This document shows, piece by piece, positions 9,820 through 20,915 of a stretch of 33,869 nt of DNA (positions within the stretch are counted from its first letter, which is position 1; each line of letters begins with the position of its first letter). A program made the translations under genes and the position numbers. This DNA is from Candidatus Poribacteria bacterium (GTDB lineage Bacteria > Poribacteria > WGA-4E > WGA-3G), in NCBI GenBank assembly GCA_009843785.1, contig VYCT01000171.1:1-33869 (forward strand), read 5' to 3'. Below the pieces are notes generated by a model. The model saw nothing but the letters and a program-made list of their open reading frames with translations, was not told where the DNA came from and did not search any database.

Positions 9820-9910
9820 GTCAAGGCACCCACCGACTAAAGTCGGGGGCTTGTGCTTCGTAGCAGTTAGCGTTTCCGAGGAAACGTCTTACATCTGCTC
9901 CACAGAGGGA
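9820..9910 (-). ncRNA. Candidate omega RNA 3' portion of element 1
   Basis: TnpB guide RNAs overlap the 3' end of tnpB and run to the right end. Here GTGGAGCAGAYGTAAGACG is conserved with element 2 even though the reading frames end at different points, indicating RNA-level conservation. A hairpin CGTTTCC/GGAAACG (9886-9871), the shared string GAAGCACAAG and the terminal hairpin (9849-9829) follow. The guide would be the flank starting CTTGGCAATAAATCAG, which is the nagA promoter. The 5' limit is not determined. Confidence 0.6.
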
Positions 9911-11088
9911 CCACGAGCAGCCCTCAAGATATTTATCGCAGCGTTGATGTCTCTATCGTGGTGTGAGCCACATTCAGGACAGGTCCACTCCCTATCAGAA
10001 AGAGAAAGGTCTTTGTTGTGATACCCACAATCCGAACAAGGTTTTGTGGTAGGAGTCCATTGTCCAGCTTGAAGGAACTCACGCTTATGTTTGAAACACT
10101 TATACTTCAATATCTCAACAAACTGCCCAAAGGAAAGGTCGGAGACTTTGCGTCCCCAGAGACGCTTCATACCTCTAAGGTTGAGTTTCTCAGTAGCAAT
10201 AGCGTCAAACCTTCGGCACAAGTCTGTGGCAAGTTTCCAATGCCAATCTTTGCGTTGGTTGGAGATATGCCGGTAGAGTCTCGTGAGTTGACGAAGACAA
10301 CGCCACCAGTTATTGGAGCCTACAACCTTACGACTGAATGCTTTGTTAAGAGATCGAAGTGCTTTCAAGGACTGTTTCAAGAATTCTGGCGATTGTATCT
10401 TCTCGCCTGTAGAAAGTGTTAAAAATGCGGCTTTCATACCGGATTTGGTCTGGGAATAGACCAAATCCATTCCTTGTATTACATTGTCTGCCCCAACGCT
10501 TTCACCTGTTGCGGGTAAGACCTCTTTAGAAACATCATCTATAACAACATAGAGCCAATAGGTGCCGACAGCATCGCGAAGGATTTGGATATAGCAAACA
10601 TTACCTTTCCAATCACGATGCTGATGAAAAGAAAACCAACGTTTGTTGAACTTGAAGGACTGCGAAGGTTCATCCCATTCTTTAAAAGAGATACGGACAC
10701 CACCTTCTTCAAGAAGATAAGCGGATTGAAACTTCGCAGAACGGTATTTACCACGCTTCTTGTGTTTCGGACGACCGAACTTAGGAACATCAAAGAAGTT
10801 TTCAAAGGAAAGATGGATACGAATAATCACAGCATCAAGAGTGTCGCGGGGTATCCATGTCCAATGCTTATGGGTGCGTTCAAGTAACTTCGTCAGATGT
10901 GGCTGCAAACGATAACGACCCGCATACTTGCCGTATCTGCGATAGTATCGGTTCTCAAGTTTGAGAAAGTGATTGTGGACATCACACAAGTCGTCAAGCA
11001 TATTGCCGAGACGCATGTTCTGAGGATGCTCGCGTATCTGATATTTATACGTGCGGCGACGTTGTTTCTTTTTTCGTTTCTTTTTCAT
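9889..11088 (-). CDS. tnpB: TnpB, RNA-guided endonuclease of IS605-type element
   Basis: The 399-residue protein is a full-length TnpB-family nuclease, ancestor-like to Cas12. RuvC residues are visible: D208 in IQGMDLV, E300 in IATEKLNL and D380 in HDRDINAA. The zinc ribbon is C351-x2-C354 and C370-x2-C373. The N-terminus is very basic (KKKRKKKQRRR). All catalytic positions are present, so it is probably active rather than a repressor-type derivative. An in-frame TGA lies three codons before the ATG, which fixes the start. No canonical Shine-Dalgarno site lies within 12 nt of the start; the upstream region is the structured leader. Confidence 0.92.
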   Translation of the reverse strand: MKKKRKKKQRRRTYKYQIREHPQNMRLGNMLDDLCDVHNHFLKLENRYYRRYGKYAGRYRLQPHLTKLLERTHKHWTWIPRDTLDAVIIRIHLSFENFFDVPKFGRPKHKKRGKYRSAKFQSAYLLEEGGVRISFKEWDEPSQSFKFNKRWFSFHQHRDWKGNVCYIQILRDAVGTYWLYVVIDDVSKEVLPATGESVGADNVIQGMDLVYSQTKSGMKAAFLTLSTGEKIQSPEFLKQSLKALRSLNKAFSRKVVGSNNWWRCLRQLTRLYRHISNQRKDWHWKLATDLCRRFDAIATEKLNLRGMKRLWGRKVSDLSFGQFVEILKYKCFKHKREFLQAGQWTPTTKPCSDCGYHNKDLSLSDREWTCPECGSHHDRDINAAINILRAARGPSVEQM

Positions 11089-11098
11089 TGGGTTTCAC

Positions 11099-11180
11099 GT
11101 ATCACGCTTTTAACCCCTAACAAGTGGGAGGCAAGTCAATTGCTAAGTAGCAACTCTTGTTAGACTTGCCAACGTGATAC
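11099..11180 (-). ncRNA. Pseudoknotted 5' leader of tnpB copy 1
   Basis: On the minus strand an outer stem GTATCACG (11180-11173) pairs with CGTGATAC (11106-11099). Inside, GGCAAGTC (11170-11163) pairs with GACTTGCC (11137-11130), TAACAAG (11162-11156) pairs with CTTGTTA (11124-11118), and TTGCT (11153-11149) pairs with AGCAA (11144-11140). The order A-B-hairpin-A'-B' is a pseudoknot. The junction GGGGTTAAAAG follows B'. The structure begins at the predicted transcript start and ends 10 nt before the ATG. The same topology with different stem sequences occurs before tnpB copy 2. Confidence 0.75.
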
Positions 11181-11184
11181 ATAT

Positions 11185-11213
11185 ATTATACCATATCTTG
11201 ATAGAAACGTCAA
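11185..11213 (-). promoter_or_regulatory. Sigma70-type promoter of tnpB copy 1
   Basis: TTGACG (11213-11208), a 17-bp spacer and TATAAT (11190-11185) on the minus strand. The expected start is near 11178, inside the 5' strand of the leader's outer stem. Confidence 0.8.
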
Positions 11214-11233
11214 AAAAAATAGGAAAATAAGAG

Positions 11234-11275
11234 CGGGCATTCCTCTCCAAGCTAAAGCATGGGGTCTCCTGCCCG
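11234..11275 (-). repeat. Left-end hairpin of TnpB element 1
   Basis: CGGGCA (11275-11270) pairs with TGCCCG (11239-11234), enclosing an imperfect inner stem around CCCCATGC-TTTA-GCTTGGAG. It is the subterminal hairpin expected for Y1-transposase recognition and corresponds to 12853-12895 in element 2. The remaining 130 bp up to the aldo/keto reductase start hold no gene and no convincing promoter. Confidence 0.6.
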
Positions 11276-11411
11276 AAGATTGATGAGAAAAAAGTTGCAT
11301 TTTTTGCTGGAATTCGGTTAAAGTATATTAAAGGACATCTGAACCAGTTTATAAAATCATAGTCACACAAGCATCTGTTGAAGAAACCAACGATTAGATG
11401 TGGAGGGTACC

Positions 11412-12194
11412 ATGGAATATTTAGCATACGGAAAAACGGGTTTAGAAATCTCACGGCTCTGTTTCGGTGCAGGACGAATCAAGGACACTTGCGATACCAT
11501 TGAAGCGGGTAGCAAACTGATTTTGAAGGCACTTGACGAAGGCGTTACCTTCTGGGATACCGCCGAAGGGTACGGGACGCAACCACACCTTGGGGAGGCT
11601 ATTCGCCAGATTCGTAGAGAAGAGGTTGTCATTCAGACGAAAACTGCCGTGAAAAATTACGATAGTGCCTCTAATAGTATTGAGAAGGCGCTGCGCGAGC
11701 TGCAGACCGGGTATGTGGATGTTATGTTGCTGCACGCAATAGCTTCACCGGAGGACTTGGCCGCGCGGGAGCGTGAGGGTGTGCTTGATGCATTCCGAGA
11801 GGCGAAAGCTGCCGGGAAAATCCGAGTCATTGGCTGCTCAACGCATACCTATACCGGTCCTGTGATGGATGCGGTGATAGACCACCCTGAAATTGAGGTT
11901 ATCCTGACGACAGCGAATAAACAAGGTAGAATGTTAGAGGGGGGTTCGATTGACCGGCATCTGGAATACATCCAACGTGCGTATGATACAGGAAAAGGTA
12001 TTAGTATCATGAAGGTTGTCGTAGCTGGTGGTATTCCAGAGGCAGATATGCCGGAATGGATCGAGTGGGGTTTCAACCTCGAGACGGCACATGCGATCAA
12101 TCTCGGTATGACGAATTACCCGCATATTACGTTAGATGTTGGGCTCGCACGTGCGAGTGCAAGGCGACGTTTGATACAACGCAAAGCGGCGTAA
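11412..12194 (+). CDS. Aldo/keto reductase family oxidoreductase
   Basis: The 260-residue NADPH-dependent TIM-barrel reductase is somewhat shorter than typical members (about 280-320). The catalytic tetrad is visible: Asp and Tyr in FWDTAEGYGTQ, Lys in VIQTKT, and His in VMLLHAI. It starts with the typical MEYLAYGKTGLEISRLCFG. ATG at 11412 is preceded by GGAGGG (11402-11407), so the in-frame GTG at 11400 is rejected. The C-terminal cofactor region is reduced, ending after NLGMTNYPH and a basic tail. It is isolated between the two TnpB elements; the substrate is unknown. Confidence 0.85.
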   Translation: MEYLAYGKTGLEISRLCFGAGRIKDTCDTIEAGSKLILKALDEGVTFWDTAEGYGTQPHLGEAIRQIRREEVVIQTKTAVKNYDSASNSIEKALRELQTGYVDVMLLHAIASPEDLAAREREGVLDAFREAKAAGKIRVIGCSTHTYTGPVMDAVIDHPEIEVILTTANKQGRMLEGGSIDRHLEYIQRAYDTGKGISIMKVVVAGGIPEADMPEWIEWGFNLETAHAINLGMTNYPHITLDVGLARASARRRLIQRKAA

Positions 12195-12212
12195 TTCATC
12201 TCTTGTGGGAAG

Positions 12213-12281
12213 GCTTTGTAACTCTGACGTTTTCATCATCTATCTTTTCTGGGCGGGGTTTGTAACCCCGATGTTTTCATA
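12213..12281. repeat. Two 25-bp direct units, one a perfect GGGGTT/AACCCC hairpin
   Basis: Units at 12213-12237 and 12257-12281 share a 'TTTGTAAC..' core and end GACG/GATG-TTTTCAT. The second forms GGGGTT (12256-12261), TGT, AACCCC (12265-12270). It belongs to the stem-ACA-stem-TCCTAC family seen at 17603, 21661 and 32580, here in reverse orientation. Confidence 0.5.
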
Positions 12282-12285
12282 GGGT

Positions 12286-12798
12286 ATGAAACAACTACGC
12301 GGCAAGCCGCTCAAAGATTTTCTGAAGCAGTCGGAGCTACCAGAGAAGGAACTGATTTTTATCCTACAAGACGTGCAGGACCCCGTCAACGTCGGTTCAG
12401 CATTTCGAATAGCGGATGCGTGCCGCGTCAAAGAACTGATCCTAACCGGCATCAGTGCGCAACCGCCTCACCCGCTTGTCCGCAAAGTTGCGCGAGGCAA
12501 GCATCGACGGGTAAAATGGCGGTATGTAGAGCAGGCGGCAGACGCTCTCGTATCACTCAAAGCGGATGGCTATACGGGTTGTGCCTTGGAGGTTACCGCG
12601 CAGTCAGTCCGCTACGATGCAGTAGACTATCCTGATAAAATCTGCCTTGTTGTAGGACACGAAGACCATGGCGTAACGAAACGGACGCTTGCTGCCTGCG
12701 ATATGGTCGTTTTCCTTCCGATGTATGGGGCAGGGGCATCGCTGAACGTCCATGTTTCGTTGGGTATTGCTGCCTATCATATCTTGCACCGTTTTTAA
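12286..12798 (+). CDS. TrmH/SpoU family RNA 2'-O-methyltransferase
   Basis: The 170-residue protein is a minimal SPOUT-class methyltransferase lacking an N-terminal substrate-binding domain, like short TrmL/TrmH relatives. Family motifs are in order: motif 1 DPVNVGSAFRIADA, motif 2 CLVVGHEDHGV, motif 3 VVFLPMYGAGASLNVHVSLG. These form the knotted SAM site. It probably 2'-O-methylates a tRNA or rRNA position. The start ATG at 12286 follows only a weak AGGG. It reads into a repeat fragment and TnpB element 2. Confidence 0.88.
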   Translation: MKQLRGKPLKDFLKQSELPEKELIFILQDVQDPVNVGSAFRIADACRVKELILTGISAQPPHPLVRKVARGKHRRVKWRYVEQAADALVSLKADGYTGCALEVTAQSVRYDAVDYPDKICLVVGHEDHGVTKRTLAACDMVVFLPMYGAGASLNVHVSLGIAAYHILHRF

Positions 12799-12838
12799 TA
12801 GTTATCAGTTTTCGGTTTTCGGTTTTCAGTTAAGAGGT
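12799..12838. repeat. Fragment of a dispersed TAGTT(A/G)TCAG repeat
   Basis: It begins TAGTTATCAG, has two tandem TTTTCGG units and ends GTTAAGAGG. The same strings occur in inverted form in the 27045-27167 repeat and partly at 33799-33850. Element 2 begins a few bases downstream, so it may have inserted in or beside a copy. Confidence 0.45.
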
Positions 12839-12852
12839 CTTAGCATAATCTT

Positions 12853-12895
12853 CGGTGTCAACCCCCCGTCCTTTAGGGCGGGGATGTAGACACCG
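12853..12895 (+). repeat. Left-end hairpin of TnpB element 2
   Basis: CGGTGTC (12853-12859) pairs with GACACCG (12889-12895), enclosing an inner stem CCCCGTCC/GGGCGGGG with a TTTA-type loop. The pairs differ from those in element 1 (CGGGCA/TGCCCG), but the form is the same. Confidence 0.65.
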
Positions 12896-12919
12896 CCTAT
12901 AGTTGTGTGAAAAAAAGGT

Positions 12920-12949
12920 TTGACAAATGTGGTAAAAATATAGTATAAT
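12920..12949 (+). promoter_or_regulatory. Sigma70-type promoter of tnpB copy 2
   Basis: TTGACA (12920-12925), an 18-bp spacer and TATAAT (12944-12949). The expected start is near 12956, at the first base of the leader's outer stem. Confidence 0.8.
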
Positions 12950-12956
12950 TAATACT

Positions 12957-13036
12957 ATCACACTGGCAAACATTACCAGCGCCACTGCTTGGTGGCGTGT
13001 TTGCCAACCCACTGGTAAGGGGTTAAAAGGTGTGAT
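12957..13036 (+). ncRNA. Pseudoknotted 5' leader of tnpB copy 2
   Basis: Outer stem ATCACAC (12957-12963) with GTGTGAT (13030-13036). Stem A: GGCAAAC (12965-12971) with GTTTGCC (12999-13005). Stem B: TTACCAG (12973-12979) with CTGGTAA (13012-13018). Inner hairpin: CGCCAC (12980-12985) with GTGGCG (12992-12997). The order A-B-hairpin-A'-B' is a pseudoknot, followed by GGGGTTAAAAG, which is identical to copy 1. It ends 12 nt before the tnpB ATG. Confidence 0.75.
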
Positions 13037-13048
13037 GTGTGATATTCC

Positions 13049-14185
13049 ATGAGAAAATCTTACAAGTTCAAGCTTCAGAACCAATCTAACACGATAAAGA
13101 TTGCCAATATGATTGACGATATGTGGCAGATTCACGTGCATATCATGCTGCTTGATCGTCGGTATTACCGTATTTATGGTAAAAATGTGTCTATTTCTCG
13201 TTTGAAGCAACACATTACCGAACTGAAAAAGCGAACGAAACCGCACTGGGCAGACTTACCGAGTCAGGTTGTTCAAGACGTTGTATTGCGTTACGGCAAG
13301 TCGCGAGATGCTTTTTTTGATAACATCAAAGACCGCAAATCTGGTAAAACAACGCGTAAAGTGGGTTTCCCTAAGATTAAGCCACGCCATAAATACAACT
13401 CCCTAACATTTACACAAGCCGGGTACACACTTGAAGATAATCGTATCAAAATCAACTGTATAGATACATGGTTCTCTATACATAAACACCGTGAAATTCA
13501 AGGTATTATCAAGACGATCACCATCAAACGAGACAGGTGTGGTGATTATTGGATATGCTTTTCGTGCGATAATGTTGACGATTCCGACCCCAAGCCTATG
13601 ACGGGTAAGAGTGCAGGGTTTGACTACGGAAACAAAACATTACTCACAAGCGACACAGGCCGTAAAATAGAATCACCAGAGTTTTTGAACCAATCACTGA
13701 AAGTATTACGGTCTCTCTCTAAGGCATTAAGTCGTAAGGTTAAAGGTTCGGGCAATTGGTATCGTGCGTGTCGTGCTTTAGCAAGGCACTATCGGAAAAT
13801 ATCACGACAACGGCTTGATTGGCAATGGAAACTATCTACCGAACTTTGCACAGAGTTTGATATACTGATTTTCGAGACGCTGAACCTTGACGGTATGAAA
13901 CGCTTGTGGGGGCGTAAAGTCTCTGACAATGCTTTCTACCAACTCCTTGAGATAATAGAACAGAAATGTGCGAAACATGGTAAAACGTTTCATAAAATCA
14001 ATATGTGGACTGCGACAACGAAACCTTGCAGTGATTGTGACTATCCTAACAAAGGACTCTCTCTTTCAGATCGGCAGTGGACATGTCCCGAATGTGGCTC
14101 ACACCACGATAGAGACGTAAACGCTGCGAGGAACATCAAACGGGCAGGCTTGGCTGCCCTAAGTGGAGCAGACGTAAGACGGTGA
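13049..14185 (+). CDS. tnpB: TnpB, RNA-guided endonuclease of IS605-type element
   Basis: The 378-residue TnpB homologue has an intact catalytic set: D192 in AGFDYGN, E276 in LIFETLNL and D356 in HDRDVNAA. The zinc ribbon is C327-x2-C330 and C346-x2-C349. It resembles copy 1 strongly in the second half (SPEFL.QSLK.LRSL, MKRLWGRKVSD, LSLSDR.WTCPECGSHHDRD) and much less in the first 190 residues. An in-frame TGA three codons upstream fixes the ATG at 13049, as in copy 1. No canonical ribosome site lies close to the start; the nearest purine run (AGGGG) is inside the leader structure. Confidence 0.92.
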   Translation: MRKSYKFKLQNQSNTIKIANMIDDMWQIHVHIMLLDRRYYRIYGKNVSISRLKQHITELKKRTKPHWADLPSQVVQDVVLRYGKSRDAFFDNIKDRKSGKTTRKVGFPKIKPRHKYNSLTFTQAGYTLEDNRIKINCIDTWFSIHKHREIQGIIKTITIKRDRCGDYWICFSCDNVDDSDPKPMTGKSAGFDYGNKTLLTSDTGRKIESPEFLNQSLKVLRSLSKALSRKVKGSGNWYRACRALARHYRKISRQRLDWQWKLSTELCTEFDILIFETLNLDGMKRLWGRKVSDNAFYQLLEIIEQKCAKHGKTFHKINMWTATTKPCSDCDYPNKGLSLSDRQWTCPECGSHHDRDVNAARNIKRAGLAALSGADVRR

Positions 14186-14254
14186 ACTCCTTAGAGTGAC
14201 CCGCTGACTGCGAGGAAGCACAAGTCCCTACCTTTAGGTAGTGGGTACCCTGAC
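14165..14254 (+). ncRNA. Candidate omega RNA 3' portion of element 2
   Basis: GTGGAGCAGACGTAAGACG matches copy 1 across the gene end. A hairpin GGT..ACTC/GAGT..ACC (14181-14201) straddles the stop codon. GAAGCACAAG (14215-14224) and the terminal hairpin (14226-14246) follow. The guide would be the flank starting TCAGAGAACGACGATTGG, upstream of the dehydrogenase gene. Confidence 0.6.
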
Positions 14255-14310
14255 TCAGAGAACGACGATTGGCTCGTTGGGTCAATCGTAACGAGGTCCA
14301 TAGTTAAAAA

Positions 14311-20750: not shown

Positions 20751-20822
20751 TACCGCTACGGGGATTCGAACCCCGGTTTGATGGCTGAGAACCATCCGTC
20801 CTAACCCCTAGACGATAGCGGC
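20751..20822 (-). tRNA. tRNA-Glu (anticodon CTC)
   Basis: The cloverleaf is complete on the minus strand. Acceptor GCCGCTA pairs with TAGCGGT (one G-T). The anticodon arm GATGG/CCATC has loop TTCTCAG, giving anticodon CTC. The T arm is CGGGG-TTCGAAT-CCCCG. CCA is not encoded. It is 22 bp downstream of tRNA-Gln. Confidence 0.93.
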
Positions 20823-20844
20823 ACATTAATATAATAATAGAGAA

Positions 20845-20915
20845 CTGCCCGGGAAGGACTCGAACCTTCACTACATGGTCCAGAGCCATGCGTCCTACCA
20901 TTAGACGACCGGGCA
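20845..20915 (-). tRNA. tRNA-Gln (anticodon CTG)
   Basis: Acceptor TGCCCGG pairs with CCGGGCA, including the U1-A72 pair typical of bacterial tRNA-Gln, with a G discriminator. The anticodon arm CATGG/CCATG has loop CTCTGGA, anticodon CTG. The T arm is GAAGG-TTCGAGT-CCTTC. It probably shares a transcript with tRNA-Glu(CTC). Confidence 0.93.

Follow-up and report, generated by a model that had tools for sequence, protein, structure and literature searches.

Leaders in which a pseudoknot or an alternative pairing hides the ribosome-binding site are well established, among them preQ1-II and the leaders of S15 rpsO and T4 gene 32, the last two being bound by the products of their own genes. Insertion-sequence genes are also known to be controlled by structure at the 5' end of the mRNA, two reports describing a hairpin on IS200 tnpA and a structured 5' untranslated region (UTR) on the ISPpu9 transposase mRNA (PMC12594629, PMC8450116). 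The TnpB transcript serves both as mRNA and, once processed by TnpB, as omegaRNA (PMC10278001), so that limiting its translation but not its transcription would be useful. Here we analyze a 33,869-nucleotide stretch of DNA from Candidatus Poribacteria bacterium (GenBank assembly GCA_009843785.1, contig VYCT01000171.1, forward strand; hereafter the window, which is contig C294 of a 6.17 Mb genome), in which two diverged tnpB genes, 47% identical, are each preceded by a pseudoknotted RNA leader. Judged by comparison of sequences, the leader looks like a built-in brake or switch on TnpB synthesis. The strongest clue to mechanism is a tandem second copy of the 3' strand of its outer stem, placed where a ribosome would bind; this copy and the scale of the family, some 650 members, go beyond the original prediction that we followed up. 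Little is known of how TnpBs, RNA-guided DNA nucleases of mobile elements, are held at tolerable levels in host cells, and the leader offers a defined RNA element at the 5' end of the mRNA on which this can be tested.

Architecture of the leader

Both window leaders consist of an outer stem P1, a stem A, a pseudoknot B, an inner hairpin and a short helix C (CCC/GGG, sometimes extended) that flanks the 3' strand of the pseudoknot (B'), B' being the loop of helix C. The genes, predicted promoters and helices are listed below in window coordinates.

9889-11088, minus strand: tnpB copy 1, 399 amino acids, with Pfam PF07282 and PF01385 (TNB and OrfB_IS605 domains)
11208-11213, minus: -35 box TTGACG of tnpB copy 1, from sequence, with a 17 nt spacer; promoter spacing kept in relatives
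11185-11190, minus: -10 box TATAAT of tnpB copy 1, from sequence, 5 nt from P1 as in 75/97 leaders; predicted start about 11178-11179
11173-11179, minus: P1 5' strand UAUCACG, the predicted mRNA 5' end, which pairs with both P1 3' copies
11163-11170, minus: stem A 5' strand GGCAAGUC (covariation)
11156-11162, minus: pseudoknot B 5' strand UAACAAG (covariation)
11138-11155, minus: inner hairpin (covariation) with tetraloop NCNN, its C at position 2 invariant in 99/99 leaders
11130-11137, minus: stem A 3' strand GACUUGCC (covariation)
11114-11128, minus: helix C CCC/GGG, its loop the pseudoknot B 3' strand CUUGUUA at 11118-11124 (covariation analyses)
11100-11106, minus: P1 3' strand copy 1, CGUGAUA (pairing and covariation)
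11093-11099, minus: P1 3' strand copy 2, CGUGAAA, about -11 to -5 relative to the start codon (pairing and covariation)
13049-14185, plus strand: tnpB copy 2, 378 amino acids, with Pfam PF07282 and PF01385 (TNB and OrfB_IS605 domains)
12920-12925, plus: -35 box TTGACA of tnpB copy 2, from sequence, with an 18 nt spacer
12944-12949, plus: -10 box TATAAT of tnpB copy 2, from sequence and promoter spacing in relatives; predicted start about 12956-12957
12956-12962, plus: P1 5' strand UAUCACA (pairing and covariation)
12965-12972, plus: stem A 5' strand GGCAAACA (covariation)
12973-12979, plus: pseudoknot B 5' strand UUACCAG (covariation)
12980-12997, plus: inner hairpin with NCNN loop (covariation; conserved loop C)
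12998-13005, plus: stem A 3' strand UGUUUGCC (covariation)
13008-13022, plus: helix C CCC/GGG, its loop the pseudoknot B 3' strand CUGGUAA at 13012-13018 (covariation analyses)
13031-13037, plus: P1 3' strand copy 1, UGUGAUG (pairing and covariation)
13038-13044, plus: P1 3' strand copy 2, UGUGAUA, -11 to -5 relative to the start codon (pairing and covariation)

The original prediction had drawn a pseudoknotted leader before both genes, and the structures do fold as drawn: without the pseudoknot, the two window leaders have folding z-scores of -5.15 and -4.16, with no equally stable sequence among the shuffled controls (0/200). Its proposal that transcription begins at the enclosing stem is likewise upheld, as the predicted sigma70-type promoter puts the start at the first base of P1. 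Of the 97 leaders that could be tested, 61 have TATAAT without mismatch as the -10 box, and in 75 exactly 5 nt separate this box from the P1 strand; the -35 box mostly sits another 17-18 nt upstream.

Covariation

In 12 leaders from the window's genome, 94.3% of alignment cells in the proposed helices are paired and 22 of the 34 base pairs show two-sided changes; when the partners are slid by 1-3 columns, pairing drops to 32-44%, and the covariation score of 0.516 compares with at most 0.115 for slid partners. A tree-aware test on 99 distinct leaders, in which the null was made by shuffling substitutions along the inferred tree, found pairs with E<0.02 in stems P1 and A, in the hairpin and in pseudoknot B, and every significant pair falls within P1 with either of its partners, A, B or the hairpin, or between the two P1 copies. 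The inference of a selected fold from compensatory changes in four helices, first made from two sequences, thus holds across the larger set, and a selected RNA structure at the 5' end of the tnpB mRNA is supported by these alignments.

The same matched changes bear on the idea that the repeats act as DNA, serving a transposase or a DNA-binding repressor at the promoter. The leader does lie in the left part of the element, and an upstream sequence, GAATTAGACCAAACG, is common to several elements with different TnpBs. However, matched swaps and G-U pairs occur in five helices arranged as one RNA strand, and a separate DNA-binding protein would be required for the particular 7-mer of every element; we consider a DNA-level role very improbable.

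A tandem second partner for the mRNA 5' end

The 3' strand of P1 is tandemly duplicated, the same 7-mer being repeated directly after the first copy, as in CCTGATACCTGATA, CTTGATACTTGATA, GTGTGATGTGTGATA and CTGGTAGCTGGTAA. The second copy spans about -11 to -5 relative to the tnpB start codon. The gap of 10-12 nt originally noted between structure and start codon is therefore there, but it is not a mere spacer, since copy 2 fills most of it. In the 12-leader alignment (A3), 92.7% of cells are paired when the 5' strand is matched with copy 1 and 91.7% when it is matched with copy 2, the latter with a covariation score of 0.433 against at most 0.08 for slid partners. Over the 99 leaders, columns 6-10 are Watson-Crick paired with copy 1 in 93-99 and with copy 2 in 97-99. 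Column 9, paired in this way with copy 2 in all 99, covaries significantly with both column 79 in copy 1 and column 86 in copy 2, and the pair 8-87 is also significant. Elsewhere in the element, where they might have served as guide or operator, P1 7-mers show no enrichment (1.07 vs 1.00 per element), and the triple of P1 strands is thus local.

The tnpB leaders of the sister Poribacteria family, which we call subtype II, are dissimilar in sequence (P1 UUGUCUUUC, A GUGGGAG) yet keep the helix order, the pseudoknot, the NCNN loop and the tandem P1' copies of subtype I. A simple pseudoknot finder gave mostly noise, and subtype II was spotted by eye and tested afterwards. In 12 of these leaders P1 is 95.8% paired with copy 1 and 97.9% with copy 2, and the tree-aware test supports both P1 copies, the pseudoknot and the hairpin, with pairs 4-74 and 4-82 significant. 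Copy 2 directly adjoins copy 1 in 38 of 46 distinct members and lies at most 1 nt away in 43, and it pairs with the 5' strand at 7/8 positions or better in 39. Several members have a decayed copy 1 and a perfectly paired copy 2 (5/8 vs 8/8 in L319). The subtype II model, built with no subtype I member, matches subtype I leaders at about 30-43 bits, the window's plus-strand leader scoring 36 bits, and it has more than 100 matches in Poribacteria. Further variants (L256, L266, L268) follow the same plan with yet other sequences, and in two divergent ones, L266/L334 and L268, the AUG start codon lies inside copy 2. In either subtype, then, the 5' strand co-varies with copy 1 as well as with copy 2, which gives the mRNA 5' end two mutually exclusive partners.

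Outside the helices few positions are conserved, and the only one that is prominent in subtypes I and II alike is the second base of the hairpin loop, a C: it is invariant in 99/99 subtype I loops and kept in 49/50 of subtype II, while the other loop positions vary. This bears on two further suggestions of the original prediction, a ribozyme and a ligand sensor, neither of which gained support. The nested A-B-hairpin-A'-B' order recalls a hepatitis delta virus (HDV)-type double pseudoknot without P4, which speaks for such a role. Against this, the junction UAAA of subtype I is not kept in subtype II, cleavage near the transcription start would release almost nothing, and the highly conserved unpaired ligand-binding core typical of a riboswitch is missing, the loop C being the main conserved unpaired position. 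No Rfam ribozyme or riboswitch model matches around the leaders at E up to 10; for HDV-like ribozymes, a new type could escape such models. A self-cleaving ribozyme or small-molecule riboswitch is, in our estimation, highly improbable.

A model for control of tnpB translation

A Shine-Dalgarno-like tetramer is found in 0 of 99 leaders vs 15 of 20 other window genes, a comparison that rests on only those 20 genes. As in leaders that sequester the ribosome-binding site, the element lies in the 5' UTR by the start codon and has a covarying strand complementary to the initiation region. Constrained folds with copy 1 or copy 2 are nearly isoenergetic, differing by 0.26 +/- 2.1 kcal/mol, although these energies were computed without the pseudoknot, which is beyond the scope of the folding program. 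The fold, the pseudoknot, the two-way covariation, the closeness to the start codon, the missing Shine-Dalgarno tetramer and the predicted promoter at P1 can all be read from the sequences.

We propose, with about an even chance of being right, that the leader controls translation of the tnpB mRNA in cis and that its 5' strand alternates between two partners. Transcription would start at the P1 5' strand, and A, B, C and the hairpin would fold into one compact domain that contains the pseudoknot. With the 5' strand on copy 1, this domain would be closed and the start region free; with the 5' strand on copy 2, the usual Shine-Dalgarno position, or the start codon itself, would be covered and initiation blocked. 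The balance between the two pairings would set TnpB output, and TnpB could be kept low while the same transcript still feeds omegaRNA. Three parts of this model are inferred: a drop in translation when copy 2 is paired, an exchange between the two states, and low TnpB with a continued supply of omegaRNA as the purpose. Control of tnpB translation, as originally suggested, is probable given copy 2 at the initiation region and the lack of a Shine-Dalgarno tetramer. Weighing against the alternation, besides the two limits just given, are that the leader might act as a constant brake and not as a switch, that copy 2 of subtype II (AGAAAGAC) might itself be a weak extended Shine-Dalgarno sequence, and that copy 2 is decayed in a few members (L322, L325, L326).

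A structure beginning at the first transcribed base could instead protect the mRNA. A start paired from its first base would resist pyrophosphohydrolase and RNase E and so stabilize the shared tnpB/omegaRNA transcript, and with two copies the 5' end would stay paired although a ribosome displaces one of them. The predicted start at the first base of P1, the very stable fold and the ability of the 5' strand to pair with either copy all agree with this idea, which we hold to be unlikely overall though it deserves some weight; by itself it leaves unexplained the pseudoknot, the position of copy 2 at the initiation site, the overlap with the AUG in L266 and L268 and the missing Shine-Dalgarno sequence.

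Distribution of the leader

A covariance model (R1) built from 12 leaders without the pseudoknot gave about 650 matches (summed), almost all of them where a tnpB gene begins, and 49 of 85 Poribacteria genomes were positive. The outcome originally named as refuting, a lack of covariation or of tnpB association in homologues, thus did not occur. The positive genomes include the window's entire genus (38 genomes) and part of two further genera in the same family, with up to 47 matches per genome, and a few matches fall in one genus of the sister family. Among 120 open reading frames starting at a leader match, 106 encode TnpB by phmmer; the remaining 14 are mostly truncated TnpB N-termini of the same families, Pfam identifies one (L097) as TnpB, and a few are orphan or weak (L103:868, L068:6897). 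Protein sequence played no part in the pattern scan from which 80 of the loci came. The weaker copies at L024:2978-3073 and L103:868-963 are followed by a non-TnpB frame starting LKDNRES, and are probably left-end remnants.

The leader's DNA pattern was found almost only in Poribacteria records, and the bacteria that carry it are marine and sponge-associated. Three pattern matches outside Poribacteria (L087, L119, L128) have no covariance-model match and are attributed to chance. One genome assigned to another phylum (G154) has six subtype I matches; its 43 kb contig C2 (L287, L289) carries Poribacteria-like open reading frames and a replication-initiator-like protein, and is likely mis-binned or a plasmid, so that we do not claim transfer of the leader to that phylum. 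A 54 kb IMG/VR contig classed as viral (L163) also carries the pattern. No leader was seen at tnpB genes of other phyla and of some Poribacteria genera (L179, L204, L209, L214, L219), several of which appear to lack a leader and have a -10-like box immediately upstream of the ATG.

A GC-rich variant of the architecture (UCCUUCC / GGAAGGA then GGGAAGG) is present in 7 copies in 5 genomes (L281, L282, L283, L285 and L286 in G038, G039 and G041; also G043 and G047), downstream of a conserved sigma54-like sequence, TTGGCACGGTTTATGC; no tnpB was seen directly after it, and it may be an independent small RNA. More generally, a strong promoter might make a stable leader RNA of about 90 nt that acts in trans, with read-through into tnpB secondary. 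The near-consensus promoter and the GC-rich variant favor this possibility, as does an RNA from the IS200 tnpA 5' end that is reported to act in trans in Salmonella (PMC12594629). Nearly all copies, however, end a few nucleotides before the tnpB start codon, no U-tract terminator is visible in the leaders, and apart from the one C the loops are not conserved as seed regions would be. For the leader as a whole we judge such a role improbable.

Host lineage and TnpB clade

A tree of 92 TnpBs places the leader in four or more deep clades that also include leaderless members. Within these clades, genomes of the window's family carry subtype I and those of the sister family subtype II, with few exceptions such as L029. 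The leader sequence follows host lineage, not TnpB clade. The left-end sequence GAATTAGACCAAACG, or one close to it, lies upstream in L013, L016, L009, L017 and L019, elements with very different TnpBs, which suggests that modules of left end, promoter and leader are exchanged among unrelated TnpB elements within one host.

This pattern matters for autoregulation, in which TnpB, its ribonucleoprotein or a host protein would bind the pseudoknot, perhaps at the loop C, shift P1 to copy 2 and repress tnpB. The near-invariant C amid variable loop positions could mark a contact, and S15 rpsO and T4 gene 32 set a precedent. TnpB binding was among the original suggestions, yet at least four deep clades share the leader and its subtype goes with host family, unlike what co-evolution with TnpB would give; TnpB-specific binding is thereby weakened, and a host factor or the ribosome becomes a likelier partner than TnpB. 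A host protein as binder is possible, and we rate protein-mediated autoregulation as a whole as decidedly unlikely. Returning to the alternating 5' strand, we suggest, at somewhat less than an even chance, that the leaders form a new family of bistable translation leaders, in which the 5' end shuttles between abutting partner copies to set TnpB output, the architecture is kept although the sequences differ beyond recognition, and host lineage is followed across several TnpB clades, pointing to a host factor or the ribosome.

Genomic context

A recognizable leader precedes 14 of the 21 TNB-domain genes in the window's genome. No TnpA gene was seen beside either tnpB in the window's list of open reading frames; seven Y1 transposase domains are encoded elsewhere in the genome. 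The 3' ends of both elements were recognized from a 3' region conserved across 61 elements:

9828-9905, minus strand, approximate bounds: conserved omegaRNA-like region at the 3' end of element 1, with the right-end hairpin AAGCCCCCGACUUUAGUCGGUGGGU
14155-14255, plus strand, approximate bounds: conserved omegaRNA-like region at the 3' end of element 2, with the right-end hairpin

Two tRNA genes (20751-20915, minus strand) lie between the tnpB region and a nuo-like NADH dehydrogenase cluster recognized from translations of open reading frames. On another contig of the same genome (C175; L284:892-2307, minus strand), a tnpB N-terminus is joined in frame to a TolB-like repeat protein, possibly a domesticated or a chance fusion, downstream of a leader whose P1 copies match.

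Comparison with known systems

Rfam searches, at the gathering score over the window and at E up to 10 around the leaders, returned only tRNAs and chance matches, and no account of the leader was found in the open-access literature searched, in keeping with the original view that it was undescribed. IS605-orfB-I (RF03065) is also a structured RNA tied by name to IS605 orfB, but its model has 214 positions and does not match the leader; at its threshold of 94.2 bits it was silent in the window and in 194 genomes including Poribacteria, and control genomes were silent too. A group I intron or IStron was rejected, as no Rfam catalytic core matches and 90 nt is too short.

With preQ1-II, S15 rpsO and T4 gene 32 the leader shares alternative pairing or a pseudoknot at the translation start; it differs in that its subtypes have no conserved aptamer core in common and in that the switching strand is the mRNA 5' end itself, with two tandem partners. 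OmegaRNA, or reRNA, is likewise a structured RNA of tnpB elements, and reRNA is also pseudoknotted (PMC10278001, PMC11061315), but it lies at the 3' end and carries the guide; the leader lies 5' of tnpB, beside a separate conserved omegaRNA-like 3' region, and was rejected as an omegaRNA on these grounds. The AmaTnpB mRNA also limits the activity of its own product, yet its cis-inhibitory region, at 825-875 nt of the mRNA, inhibits DNA cleavage rather than translation (PMC10278001). Closest in kind are the IS200 tnpA and ISPpu9 leaders, reported to be structured 5' UTRs that help control expression of an insertion-sequence gene; those genes encode transposases, whereas here the gene is tnpB and the leader combines a pseudoknot with a duplicated 3' strand that gives the 5' end two exclusive pairings. 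Control of insertion-sequence genes by 5' mRNA structure is thus a known kind of regulation, within which what appears new is the RNA family described here, with its pseudoknot and tandem partner strands. Two tandem partners for one strand make a simple layout with two states, which could be put to direct test and reused in RNA engineering.

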